NCBI GenBank assembly: GCA_021777555.1
Contig: JAJYDK010000006.1
Span: 1 to 64,000 of the forward strand
DNA: 64,000 nt
Direction of reading: 5' to 3'
Source: Pseudomonadota bacterium
GTDB taxonomy: Bacteria > Pseudomonadota > Gammaproteobacteria > Steroidobacterales > Steroidobacteraceae
Position numbers and translations under genes: made by a program. How positions within the stretch are numbered: the first letter of the stretch is position 1; each line of letters begins with the position of its first letter. Of the stretch, positions 30,889 through 34,740 are shown one piece after another. The notes under the pieces were generated by a model. The model searched no databases, was not told the origin of the DNA, and saw nothing but the letters and a program-made list of their open reading frames with translations.

Positions 30889-31188
30889 ATGTCACACGAG
30901 CTGGTCTGTTGGAAGTGCGGCGCCTCCCTCGCGGCGCTGACGCTGCCGCTGCGGCGCCTGGAGGAATGCCAGAAATGCCGGGCGGAGCTGCACGTCTGCC
31001 GGATGTGTGTCGACTACGACACCCAGGTGGCCAAGCACTGCCGCGAGCCGACGGCCGAGGAGGTGCGCGATAAGGAGCACGCCAACTTCTGCGATTTCTT
31101 CAAGCCCCGGCCGGCCGCCTACATCGCCCCCAACACCGCGGAGGTCGCCCGGGCCCGCGCGGAGCTCGAGAAGCTGTTCGGGCGCTGA
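30889..31188 (+). CDS. Small Cys-rich putative zinc protein
   Basis: A 99-residue protein I do not recognise by name. It has seven Cys: C-x2-C at 7/10 (VCWKCGAS), C-x2-C at 28/31 (ECQKCRAE), C-x2-C at 37/40 (HVCRMCVDYD), a single at 51 (AKHCREPTAEEV) and one at ~69 in NFCDFFKP, so at least one and probably two zinc sites of the ribbon/knuckle kind. The D-Y-D then H-C-x-E-P segment and the NFCDFF motif look conserved. ATG 30889 has GGAGG 11 bases upstream. It lies 45 bases after uvrA on the same strand, so it is probably co-transcribed with it. Confidence 0.8.
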   Translation: MSHELVCWKCGASLAALTLPLRRLEECQKCRAELHVCRMCVDYDTQVAKHCREPTAEEVRDKEHANFCDFFKPRPAAYIAPNTAEVARARAELEKLFGR

Positions 31189-31215: not shown

Positions 31216-32718
31216 CTAAGACTTGCGCACCCGCTCGCCCAACCGCTCGAGCAGCCGCGTGAAGGGCGCGCTCTTCTCGGCCTTGCGTGCGGGGCCGGTG
31301 CCCGTGCCGCCCTGCTTGCTCTCATCGATGGTGAGCTGGTGCGCGCCCAGGATCTCCAGAGTCTCCTCCAGAGTCTGCGGCGCGCGGCGCTCGCGCGCGT
31401 TGATCTTGCCACCGGCGCGTGAGGCGGCAACCGGGCGCAGCTGTCGCACCGCGGCGCTCGGCGGCTTTGCGGCGGCCGGCGTCGCTGCCGTCGCGCTCGT
31501 GCCGCTCGCGACGGGGTGATCCGGATCGAAGAGCTTGAATTCTCCCGAATCGAGCGCGCTGCGTCTCTCGGGCGCCTTCGGCGCGGAGCGCACCGGGACG
31601 CTGGCGTTCTCGCCGCTCACCCGCTTGCGCTCCTCGGCGCTCACCGGGACCACCGCCACGGAGGCGAACTCCGATCGCACGTAGCCGGCGACCTGCTTGG
31701 CCGAGATGGGGTCATTGAAGAACCCGAGACGCAGCCCATACCACTTGCGCCCTTGGCGGCTGCCCTCGATGCAATAGAGCGAATAGGCGCTGAAGATCGC
31801 GAGCGGCGGCACTTTGTCGAGCAGGATGGGCTGCACCGACCAGTGCAGCTGCACGGCGAAGGCCGCCGGCTTGGCGCCCTCCTGCGTCCGGCCCTCGAGC
31901 ACCTGCAGCGCCTGCGGGTCGCTCAGCGTCGCGGTGCCGGGCTTGAGCACCGGGGCAGGCATCGCGCGGGTAATCCCGGCCGGCGCCTGTCCCCGGGCGG
32001 GCTCATCGAGTGCCGCCAGCACCTCCTTGATGTTGGAATCCGTCAGCGGTGCCCCGGAGGGCGCCGGCGCGGTGGCGTGCGATGCGCGCCGGGCGGCGGC
32101 CGAACCGCTTCGCGGCTTGGCTGGCGGCGTCAGTTTCACCACTTCGGCGAGCTGCGGCTGCGAGACTTCGAGCTCGAGCTCCTGGGTCACGGGCGCCTGT
32201 GCGGCGGAGACGGCATCTTTGCGGTCCACCCCCTCGGGAAGGCTCGCGTGCGTTTCCTCGGGCGGATGCAGGGTGGGTACTCGAGCCGCCACGTCGGCGG
32301 GAATGCCCGCCGACGGCTCCTCCGGCTGCTGCGCAGGCGCGCTCAGCGCGTGGGGTCCGGTGGCGTGCGCGGCCTGAGCCGCGGCGGCAGCGGCCGCGCG
32401 AGCCCGCAGCTTCTTGCCGGGCGCCTCACCGGCCCAGGCCCCCGGATAGATCTCACGCACCAGGCCGAGCCAGCCCTCCGCCTCGGTGAGCGTATCGAAG
32501 TAACCCATGTGCAGCCGGAAGCGCTCGCGTCCCTCCTCGAAGCGGCGGCTGACGAAGAAGTTGAAGCGCTGCAATTCCGGCAAATCCGCCTTCGGCAAGG
32601 CCATCGGCGTGCTGGAAGAGCACAGATTGATGACGAAGGGGCCCGCCTGGGGGGCGGCTGCCTCCCGGGACTCGGCGTCGGTCTCGGAGACTGACGCCAG
32701 ATTTTCCGCTGGGGTCAT
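31216..32718 (-). CDS. SPOR-like repeat protein under c-di-GMP riboswitch
   Basis: A 500-residue protein of unknown function with two segments resembling SPOR (peptidoglycan-binding) folds. The first is at ~27-95 (FVINLCSSSTP, then VSRRFEEGRERFRLHMGYFDTLTEAEGWLGLVREIYPGAW). The second is in the second half (FAVQLHWS, then YCIEGSRQGRKWYGLRLGFFNDPISAKQVAGYVRSEF). The rest is Ala/Pro-rich linker, with a C-terminal motif RRAPQTLEETLEILGAHQLTIDES. I see no signal peptide or membrane helix, so the location is uncertain. ATG 32718 is the first ATG after the leader hairpin; the ribosome site is weak. The leader carries a GEMM-I riboswitch, tying expression to cyclic di-GMP. It ends convergent with the Cys-rich gene. 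Confidence 0.75.
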   Translation of the reverse strand: MTPAENLASVSETDAESREAAAPQAGPFVINLCSSSTPMALPKADLPELQRFNFFVSRRFEEGRERFRLHMGYFDTLTEAEGWLGLVREIYPGAWAGEAPGKKLRARAAAAAAAQAAHATGPHALSAPAQQPEEPSAGIPADVAARVPTLHPPEETHASLPEGVDRKDAVSAAQAPVTQELELEVSQPQLAEVVKLTPPAKPRSGSAAARRASHATAPAPSGAPLTDSNIKEVLAALDEPARGQAPAGITRAMPAPVLKPGTATLSDPQALQVLEGRTQEGAKPAAFAVQLHWSVQPILLDKVPPLAIFSAYSLYCIEGSRQGRKWYGLRLGFFNDPISAKQVAGYVRSEFASVAVVPVSAEERKRVSGENASVPVRSAPKAPERRSALDSGEFKLFDPDHPVASGTSATAATPAAAKPPSAAVRQLRPVAASRAGGKINARERRAPQTLEETLEILGAHQLTIDESKQGGTGTGPARKAEKSAPFTRLLERLGERVRKS

Positions 32719-32784
32719 GTGGGTACGGACTCTCGCTCGTTGGACCCCGGCCTGCGGCGACTCACGGACGGGAGGGGGAGCGAG

Positions 32785-32806
32785 CGATCGCACCGGCGTG
32801 CGATCG
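32785..32806 (-). promoter_or_regulatory. Expression-platform hairpin after the riboswitch
   Basis: A perfect hairpin on the minus strand, CGATCGCAC-GCCG-GTGCGATCG, with 9-base arms. It directly follows the aptamer and lies 66 bases before the start codon. It lacks a U-tract, so it may act by pausing, Rho access or alternative pairing rather than as a classical intrinsic terminator. Confidence 0.65.
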
Positions 32807-32885
32807 TGGCGGCCCCGCCGTCATGGGAATCGTCCCGAAGACCGGTGGCTTTGCGTCCCCGCCTTTCGACGGGTTTGCCTTTGTC
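32807..32885 (-). ncRNA. Class I cyclic-di-GMP riboswitch (GEMM-I)
   Basis: On the minus strand the conserved GEMM-I core is present in order. GCAAACC (32872-32878) is followed by a short stem capped by a GAAA-type loop, CGAAAG (32863-32868). Next come the invariant GGACGCAAAGCC (32847-32858), then ACCGG-TCTTCGG, and the second helix ending CATGACGGCGGGGCCGCC, which carries the tetraloop-receptor and GCGGGGnnGCC elements of the family. Class I GEMM aptamers bind cyclic di-GMP and control genes for surface, motility and envelope traits. The only gene downstream is the SPOR-like gene at 32718. Confidence 0.9.
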
Positions 32886-32981
32886 ACTGACGCAAAGTGT
32901 CAGCGTAGTGCCCAAGAGAGTCAAGGCCTGAAATGCGGCGCAACTCTCAGCTGCGCGGACTACGTACGTGCGCGGAGCCTG

Positions 32982-33042
32982 CGCGCCGCCCTTATGTTTC
33001 AAGGGCGGCGCGATATGTCATGCGCCGCGGCGCAGCCGCCGC
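32982..33042 (-). repeat. Two tandem GC-rich hairpins after hutU
   Basis: Directly abutting the hutU stop codon is GCGGCG-GCTG-CGCCGC (33027-33042). After 14 bases comes a larger hairpin with perfect 12-base arms, CGCGCCGCCCTT and AAGGGCGGCGCG, around a 7-base loop (32982-33012). GACATAAG and AACATAAG precede the GGCGG-type stems in both. There is no U-tract. They may protect the hut mRNA 3' end or act as a Rho-assisted terminator, or be a REP-like repeat. Confidence 0.6.
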
Positions 33043-34740
33043 TTATGTCAACTCACCGAGGATGCCGGGCAGATCGAGGCCGTGCTGGCGCGCGCATTCG
33101 ATCGCTTCCGGATAGCCCGCATCGGCGTGACGCATGACCCCGCTCGCCGGGTCGTTCCACAGCACGCGCGCAATCCGCTTCGCCGCCTCCGGCGTGCCAT
33201 CGCACACGATGACCAGGCCCGCGTGTTGGGAAAAGCCCATGCCGACACCGCCGCCATGGTGCAGCGACACCCAGGTCGCGCCCGATGCGGTGTTGAGCAG
33301 CGCGTTGAGCAGCGGCCAGTCGGACACGGCATCCGAGCCGTCGCGCATCGCTTCGGTTTCGCGATTGGGCGAGGCCACGGAGCCCGAGTCGAGGTGATCG
33401 CGCCCGATCACCACCGGCGCCTTGAGCTCCCCGCGCGCCACCATCTCGTTGAAAGCGAGTCCGAGGCGGTGCCGCTCGCCGAGACCTACCCAGCAGATGC
33501 GCGCCGGCAGTCCCTGGAAGTGGATCTTCTCGCGCGCCATGTCGAGCCAATGATGCAGCTGCCGGTCGTGGGGCAGCAGCTCCTTCACCTTGGCGTCGGT
33601 CTTGTAGATGTCCTCGGGGTCCCCCGAGAGCGCCGCCCAGCGGAACGGCCCCACACCGCGGCAGAAGAGCGGCCGGATGTAGGCGGGCACGAAGCCGGGG
33701 AAGTCGAAGGCGTTCTTCACGCCCTCCTCGAGGGCCATCTGCCGGATGTTGTTGCCGTAGTCCACGGTGGGCACCCCGGCCTCGTGGAAATCCAACATGG
33801 TGCGCACGTGCGCGGCCATCGAGGCGCGCGCCGCCTGCGCCACGGCCTTCGGATCGCGCTCGCGCATCTGCACCCAGCGCTCGACGCTCCAGCCGATCGG
33901 CAGGTAGCCATTCACCGGGTCGTGGGCCGAGGTCTGATCGGTGAGCAGACTCGGGCGCACGCCACGCTCGAAGATCCGCGGCAGGACTTCCGCGGCGTTG
34001 CCGAGCAGTCCCACCGACACGGGTCTGCCGCCCTCGCAGGCGCGCTGCACGATCGCCAGCGCCTCATCCAGGCTCTCGGTGGCGTGATCGAGGTAGCCCG
34101 AGCGCAGCCGCATGTCGATGCGCGAGCGCTGGCACTCGATGGCGAGGCAGGAGGCGCCCGCCATCACCGCCGCGAGCGGCTGCGCGCCGCCCATGCCGCC
34201 GAGGCCCGCCGTGAGCAGCCAGCGCCCGGTGAGCGAGCCGCCGTAGTGGCGCCGGCCCATCTCGGCGAAGGTCTCGTAGGTGCCCTGCACGATGCCCTGG
34301 CTGCCGATGTAGATCCACGAGCCCGCGGTCATCTGGCCGAACATCATGAGCCCCTTGCGGTCGAGCTCGTTGAAGTGCTCCCAGGTGGCCCAGCGCGGCA
34401 CCAGGTTGGAGTTGGCGATGAGCACGCGCGGCGCATCCGCGTGGGTGGTGAAGACCCCGACCGGCTTGCCCGACTGGATGAGCAGTGTCTGATCCGCTTC
34501 GAGCCGCCGGAGGGTGGATACGATGATGTCGTAGCTCTCCCAGTCGCGCGCGGCGCGCCCGATGCCGCCGTACACCACGAGCTCCGAGGGCCGCTCGCCG
34601 ACGTCCGGATCCAGATTGTTCATCAGCATGCGCAGCGGCGCCTCCGTCAGCCAGCTCTTGGCGGTGCGCTGCGTCCCGGTGGGCGCTCGGATGACCCGCG
34701 TCGTGTCGACTCGGGTCCGGGTGGCGTGAGACGAGGTCAT
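33043..34740 (-). CDS. hutU: Urocanate hydratase HutU
   Basis: Second step of histidine degradation: urocanate to imidazolonepropionate, using tightly bound NAD+ as electrophile. The 565-residue product has family-standard length. It has [15 protein letters not shown] near the start, [15 protein letters not shown], the NAD-binding Gly-rich loop [12 protein letters not shown], the conserved Cys region [24 protein letters not shown], and [22 protein letters not shown] near the C terminus. ATG 34740 overlaps the hutG stop by ATGA. It is the last gene of hutIHGU; paired hairpins follow its TAA. Confidence 0.97.

Follow-up and report, generated by a model that had tools for sequence, protein, structure and literature searches.

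A conserved c-di-GMP-I riboswitch in the leader of a predicted twin-SPOR protein gene of the Steroidobacteraceae

Analysis of the 64,000-nucleotide stretch of DNA presented above (hereafter the window) revealed an aptamer that, by its sequence, is a genuine c-di-GMP-I (GEMM-I) riboswitch, placed in the leader of a gene whose modelled product carries two SPOR folds. Comparison with related genomes indicated that the pairing of the aptamer with the twin-SPOR gene is conserved across the family. The riboswitch class itself is known and ordinary; what is new is a well-conserved instance with an unstudied target. Taken jointly, the data are best explained by a c-di-GMP-I riboswitch on a probable single-gene transcript, exerting translational control over a soluble twin-SPOR protein, an account that we consider fairly probable as a whole. 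In this mechanism c-di-GMP would bind the aptamer in the 5' leader of the twin-SPOR gene, the ligand-bound aptamer would act via the hairpin next to it and an expression platform of 85 nt, ribosome access to the start site would change, and the level of the twin-SPOR protein would follow the c-di-GMP of the cell. The features discussed are collected in Table 1.

Table 1. Positions of the riboswitch, its expression platform and the associated coding regions, in window coordinates.
Feature	Coordinates	Strand	Basis
c-di-GMP-I (GEMM-I) riboswitch aptamer	32804..32888	-	RF03167 and RF01051 over gathering; G20/A47/C92 equivalents canonical
9-bp hairpin with 4-nt loop, directly 3' of aptamer	32785..32806	-	Sequence; pairing in genus-level leaders
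CTCGCTC, possible anti-Shine-Dalgarno	32778..32784	-	Complementary to 32732-32738; MFE fold
GAGCGAGAG, weak Shine-Dalgarno-like segment	32730..32738	-	Sequence; inference
Gene of 500-aa twin-SPOR protein	31216..32718 (stop codon included)	-	ORF, homologues, SPOR folds
N-terminal SPOR-like domain, residues 25-124	32347..32646	-	AF2 mean pLDDT 78.9; RlpA SPOR Z 8.4
C-terminal SPOR domain region, residues 279-370 (fold 286-360)	31609..31884	-	AF2 block pLDDT 79-94; RlpA SPOR Z 7.7
Conserved ~100-aa cysteine-containing protein	30889-31188	+	Convergent to twin-SPOR gene

The cmscan search of the 64-kb window listed RF03167 (c-di-GMP-I-GGC) as the sole Rfam match over gathering (71.2 bits against 59, E 7.3e-15), one overlapping match of lower score from the same clan being left out of the list. 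The match ran over the full length of the c-di-GMP-I model on the minus strand (32888-32804), and the RF01051 covariance model gave the same aptamer 74.2 bits (gathering 35). No further RF01051 match was found in the 4,018,486-base genome at E<=10, and RF03167 elsewhere in this genome reached 13.6-14.6 bits in three places, far under 59. The sequence-only reading had proposed a GEMM-I element on the minus strand at 32785-32885, in the leader of a SPOR-like gene. All four sequence blocks that it named were present inside the full-length match, its coordinates proved correct within 3 nt at the 5' end of the aptamer, and the covariance-model search that it had suggested gave scores over gathering in both RF03167 and RF01051, hence no refutation. 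The aptamer does lie in the leader of this gene, on the sense strand, with 85 nt between its end and the ATG, and the perfect 9-bp hairpin noted after it exists as well (32806-32785), its sequence overlapping the 3' end of the aptamer match by 3 nt.

Of 120 Steroidobacteraceae genomes, 68 contained a homologue of the twin-SPOR gene, and 18 of 25 genera were represented. Among the 30 loci returned for Rfam comparison, the window's own being one of them, 28 had an upstream aptamer of the c-di-GMP-I or GGC family in the same orientation as the gene; the misses were L044 and L065, the latter of which starts inside the gene. A custom covariance model, built from 27 aligned aptamers, was run on 40 loci that were either larger or additional. 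It found an aptamer in 36, and in all 36 the gene followed on the same strand; some of the four loci missed (L088, L092, L100, L104) may be paralogues. The match in L071, from the same genome as L044, scored 46 bits and overlapped the matched coding region. The same model found the aptamer in 68 of 77 public-assembly loci, a set that overlaps with the 40 loci, several assemblies being present in both collections. Judging from the match positions, eight of the nine public-assembly misses begin inside the gene (L118, L125, L129, L139, L145, L148, L165, L170), and L169 was a true miss. Weak matches among the 68 were those in L141 (29.6 bits) and L121 (46.1 bits, a score as in L071, again with overlap of the coding region that had been matched).

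The ligand pocket was compared with the aid of Vc2 numbering, mapped onto the window by us. The window aptamer has G, A and C at the equivalents of G20, A47 and C92, and these columns were invariant in the 27 aligned aptamers, the window's included (27 of the 34 aptamers found upstream of homologues). A was also present at the A47 position in 33/33 pattern matches, which came from 29 of the 30 order-wide loci L006-L035 (L034 gave none). Sensors of c-AMP-GMP (GEMM-Ib) carry A at position 20; unlike them, the window aptamer and all 27 aligned aptamers have G. The consensus of RF03167, GACGCGAAG, differs from the window segment, GACGCAAAG, in having G where the window has A at the base matching A47. 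According to PMC4744006, G20, A47 and C92 are ligand-contacting bases, and PMC9049102 also describes the roles of pocket bases. The base A47 (Vc2 numbering) is stacked in between the ligand's two guanines. The name c-di-GMP-I-GGC appears in a list of family names in PMC12452182, and from the model consensus together with the family name we read "GGC" as standing for the three pocket bases. The GGC-variant reading of the aptamer was rejected because of the canonical A at A47, and since all three contacting bases are canonical, the Rfam label should not be taken as altered specificity. As judged from its bases, the pocket is a canonical c-di-GMP pocket, which is the ordinary reading, and we infer c-di-GMP as the ligand. 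A warning follows for annotation: the Rfam GGC label can fall on RNAs with an ordinary c-di-GMP pocket. Vc1 and Vc2 of Vibrio cholerae (RF01051) share with the window RNA the full-length aptamer, the canonical G20/A47/C92 and the leader position; the window RNA differs from them in its target, which encodes a twin-SPOR protein without a visible export signal, and in its platform, in which no intrinsic terminator was seen.

The distance from the aptamer end to the ATG varied from 68 to 109 nt in 34 loci. The 3' hairpin was retained in the genus: 22 leaders from genus level had 93.9% of their cells paired, as against at most 43.8% for slid versions of the hairpin; covariation beyond shuffles was not detected for it in these leaders. 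No terminator-like site was found in 32600-33200, and control by an intrinsic terminator was set aside for that region; TTTT occurred in just 5/64 leaders. Complementarity of the start region (-20..+3) to the upstream leader exceeded that of dinucleotide shuffles in 41 dereplicated leaders (Fisher p 7.8e-5), with 13 of the 41 at p<0.1 and the window leader at p 0.033. Two control regions gave no excess in the same test (Fisher 0.81, n 41; 0.96, n 34). The result varied with the region tested, the -32..+6 region giving Fisher p 0.47 (window leader 0.066) and the run-length test of -18..-2 giving Fisher p 0.003 (window leader 0.27), and the leaders share ancestry, so that these p values are not clean probabilities. 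By partition function, the accessibility of the Shine-Dalgarno segment in 65 leaders (0.28, mean rank 0.36) was only slightly below that in shuffles (0.37). The 7-bp pairing of CTCGCTC with GAGCGAG showed no covariation in the genus and was dropped as a covarying stem, GAGCG being kept while its partner drifts. The pairing of the aptamer G-run with the downstream pyrimidine tract, suggested by RNAalifold, was discarded too (Fisher 0.92; overlap in 26/41 leaders vs 25.3 expected).

Other accounts of the RNA were weighed with these data. It is extremely improbable that the match is a chance resemblance or a decayed, functionless copy, given its E value for RF03167 and the retention of the aptamer with the gene in 68 of the 77 loci. 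A variant of the c-di-GMP-I-GGC or c-AMP-GMP type, sensing another ligand, also seems most improbable. Although cmscan retained RF03167 (71.2 bits over 59) in preference to RF01051 as the best model of the clan, which is the likeness to the GGC family, RF01051 gave the higher bits (74.2), A47 of this RNA corresponds to a G in the RF03167 consensus, all 27 aligned aptamers and 33/33 pattern matches have A there, and G20 is G, not the A that is the signature of c-AMP-GMP sensors. An aptamer that is real and binds c-di-GMP could, on the other hand, control transcription in a Rho-dependent manner or by attenuation. The 3' hairpin abutting the aptamer and kept in the genus would suit such control, a Rho-type mode leaves little sequence trace, and the translational signal was gone for the widest region tested; we nevertheless regard transcriptional control as rather unlikely. 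The absence of a visible intrinsic terminator, the rarity of T-runs in 64 leaders and the modest complementarity at the start site argue against it, and because of the same three observations control at translation initiation is favoured, with moderate confidence.

The coding start of the target gene is ATG 32718 and not the upstream GTG, since this start lines up in relatives. The window protein had no Pfam match at E<=1, SPOR (PF05036) included, and no NCBIfam match at E<=10; an alignment of 22 members, the window protein counted as one, nevertheless contained 19 with a Pfam SPOR match at E<=0.5 (best 4.2e-6). An AlphaFold2 model built from 40 aligned sequences contained two confident domains in an otherwise largely disordered chain (mean pLDDT 59.1, pTM 0.30, domain blocks 72-94). 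In a structural search, the modelled C-terminal domain matched the SPOR domain of RlpA best (Z 7.7, rmsd 2.4, 72 aligned), followed by an exported protein of Burkholderia (Z 7.5) and CwlC (Z 7.0), with DamX (Z 5.5) and DedD (Z 5.3) amid unrelated chains of similar Z. The N-terminal domain, modelled alone with a mean pLDDT of 78.9, also gave RlpA SPOR as its best match (Z 8.4, rmsd 2.3, 72 aligned), and then the same Burkholderia protein (Z 7.0, rmsd 7.5), CwlC (6.3) and DamX (5.1). A structural Z under 8 can by itself reflect common arrangements; SPOR domains were at the top for both segments. Foldseek E values for the best SPOR chains were weak (0.02 to 0.07). A relationship between the two domains was shown by hhalign (probability 85, E 5.8e-6), and both models follow the strand-helix-strand-strand-helix-strand order. 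Searched against solved structures, the profile of the whole protein gave weak matches only, none of them SPOR, that of the C-terminal domain gave DamX at E 0.7, and that of the N-terminal domain gave nothing credible. The models thus bear out the earlier description of a protein with two SPOR segments, both of them matching solved SPOR domains best, and as modelled the window gene product carries two SPOR folds.

The window protein resembles the known SPOR domains (PF05036: RlpA, CwlC, DamX, DedD) in strand and helix order, in its best structural matches and in Q290. The glutamine of beta-1 contacts the glycan in RlpA (Q270), DamX (Q351) and FtsN (Q251), as stated in PMC6895207. Q290 of the C-terminal domain occupies this conserved position, as seen in an alignment to DamX, and was invariant in 41 rows; the N-terminal domain has Asn (N31) there, invariant in 43 rows. 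Unlike RlpA, CwlC, DamX and DedD, the window protein combines two divergent copies of the domain with a long Ala/Pro linker, shows no membrane anchor or signal, and has Asn for Gln in its N-terminal copy. Outside the order, weak relatives were found in 12 of 369 genomes searched, nine matching the N-terminal and three the C-terminal part. Seven long ORF stretches of 662-824 aa were read among them (L185, L187, L188, L189, L191, L192, L195). These ~800-aa SPOR-TPR proteins of other Gammaproteobacteria have in common with the window protein a weak match to its SPOR segments and differ, by eye, in a hydrophobic N-terminus and in TPR-like and barrel-like parts; L187, the only one tested, matched Pfam SPOR, YfiO and TPR_9.

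In FtsN, DamX, DedD and RlpA, a membrane anchor or signal peptide places the SPOR domain outside the cytoplasm. Hydropathy was scanned over 19-residue segments in 29 homologues, and neither a signal peptide nor a membrane segment was visible in any of them by this measure. The maximum anywhere in the window protein was 1.18 and the highest N-terminal value among the homologues 1.33; the highest value overall, 1.86, was located in the Ala/Pro linker. By sequence, the window protein hence looks like a soluble, cytoplasmic one. An export signal or anchor is not a defining feature of the SPOR fold.

The neighbourhood of the gene was compared in 41 loci, i.e., 40 of the 68 aptamer-bearing public loci and the window, with ORFs clustered by BLAST. 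In 36/41 loci the twin-SPOR gene is followed by a convergent gene for a ~100-aa protein on the opposite strand; the one in the window (30889-31188) gave no Pfam or NCBIfam match over cut-off. The uvrA cluster, also on the opposite strand, was present in 30/41 loci, which is an undercount, the window's own uvrA (Pfam UvrA_inter and UvrA_DNA-bind) lying outside the cluster. A DNA-repair gene had been named as the neighbour, and this gene is uvrA; it is convergent, though, and being on the opposite strand it cannot share a transcript with the twin-SPOR gene, so that a DNA-repair link via this neighbour was abandoned. As the ~100-aa and uvrA genes both converge from the opposite strand, the twin-SPOR gene is probably transcribed alone, as a single-gene unit.

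Upstream, a co-directional cluster whose Pfam-tested representative is GAF-GGDEF-EAL was present in 20/41 loci, and an ORF with both GGDEF/GGEEF and LDDFG strings in 15/41. Such an ORF with both strings was the nearest kept ORF in 10/41 loci, ending 103-256 nt before the aptamer; in the remaining GGDEF-EAL loci other genes lie between it and the aptamer. A GGDEF-EAL gene was not found upstream in the window, nor in the loci of its genus mates. A cluster with an NlpC/P60 representative was upstream in 10/41 loci. The upstream region of the window is a histidine-utilisation operon (Pfam urocanase, N-formylglutamate amidohydrolase, aromatic amino acid lyase and amidohydrolase). Between the urocanase gene and the aptamer there is a 10-bp perfect inverted repeat with a 7-nt loop (33010-32984, minus strand) and no T-run, which is possibly the transcription end of the hut operon. 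A separate observation concerns L149, in which an ORF located ~6.5 to 4.0 kb upstream of the aptamer is radical-SAM-like and, by eye, seemingly interrupted by an intein-like stretch at the cysteine cluster.

Across the order, RF03167 was matched at E<=0.01 in 236 of 296 genomes. All 22 searched genomes of the window's genus had at least one match and 12 exactly one; in these single-aptamer genomes (G277 among them) the aptamer precedes the twin-SPOR gene in 12/12. The 30 best-scoring order-wide loci (L006-L035) were not randomly sampled; in 10 of them the motif identified the twin-SPOR gene behind the aptamer, and L028 has a divergent relative there. Five other proteins behind aptamers were chosen by eye for Pfam: those of L006 and L035 are M23 peptidases, that of L014 has Ig and fn3 domains, that of L027 has PD40 repeats, and that of L011 had no Pfam match. 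Aptamers directly before M23 peptidase genes (L006 and L035 by Pfam; L008, L009 and L012 by resemblance) suggest c-di-GMP control of cell-wall hydrolases in the order. In other families of the order two c-di-GMP-I aptamer cores occur on one strand within ~300 nt (L007, L011, L013, L017, L023), mostly preceding lipoprotein-like genes; two pattern matches were obtained in L007, L013 and L023, and second-core positions for L007, L011, L013 and L017. The window's own genome contains 23 GGDEF matches, one a short fragment, and c-di-GMP is therefore very likely made in this organism. No c-di-GMP-II riboswitch (RF01786) was found in it, a result of little weight as the control genomes also gave none.

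The sequence-only reading had inclined to a cell-wall or division function. This role stays hypothetical for a protein with Asn for Gln in one SPOR domain and without a signal peptide or membrane segment visible by hydropathy, a lack that leaves contact with peptidoglycan unexplained. The missing export signal is a real obstacle, which weakens the idea without refuting it; the idea is helped somewhat by the cell-wall peptidases among the targets of the order and by the c-di-GMP enzyme encoded close by in some members of the family. A genuine SPOR function in the cell wall or in division, outside the cytoplasm and after export by a route unseen in the sequence, would agree with the best matches of both domains to SPOR folds, with the invariant C-terminal equivalent of RlpA Q270 and DamX Q351 and with the upstream NlpC/P60 cluster in 10/41 loci; faced with 29 homologues devoid of a signal peptide or membrane segment by hydropathy, and with the Asn of the N-terminal domain, we find it doubtful. 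A soluble protein serving an envelope- or surface-related c-di-GMP output would be the most likely role, because SPOR is of the peptidoglycan-glycan binder type and other aptamers of the order precede M23 peptidase and lipoprotein-like genes.

In the accessible literature on SPOR domains and riboswitches, on SPOR domains and c-di-GMP/GGDEF, and on riboswitches of Steroidobacter, no mention of this pairing was found. The riboswitch would connect c-di-GMP directly, and in a conserved manner, with a protein family that is as yet uncharacterised. As a tentative proposal, it may set the level of a cytoplasmic twin-SPOR protein as a family-wide c-di-GMP output, possibly within a dedicated module in which SPOR has moved from peptidoglycan to a cytoplasmic partner; this partner could be a nucleic acid, a different glycan, or a protein that acts in division or surface assembly. 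A dedicated module comes to mind because, in 12 of the 22 genomes of the genus, no c-di-GMP-I switch other than this one was found, and because GGDEF-EAL genes adjoin in other genera. For the same reason of a sole switch in those 12 genomes, the twin-SPOR gene is a natural place to test the role of c-di-GMP in the little-studied Steroidobacteraceae.
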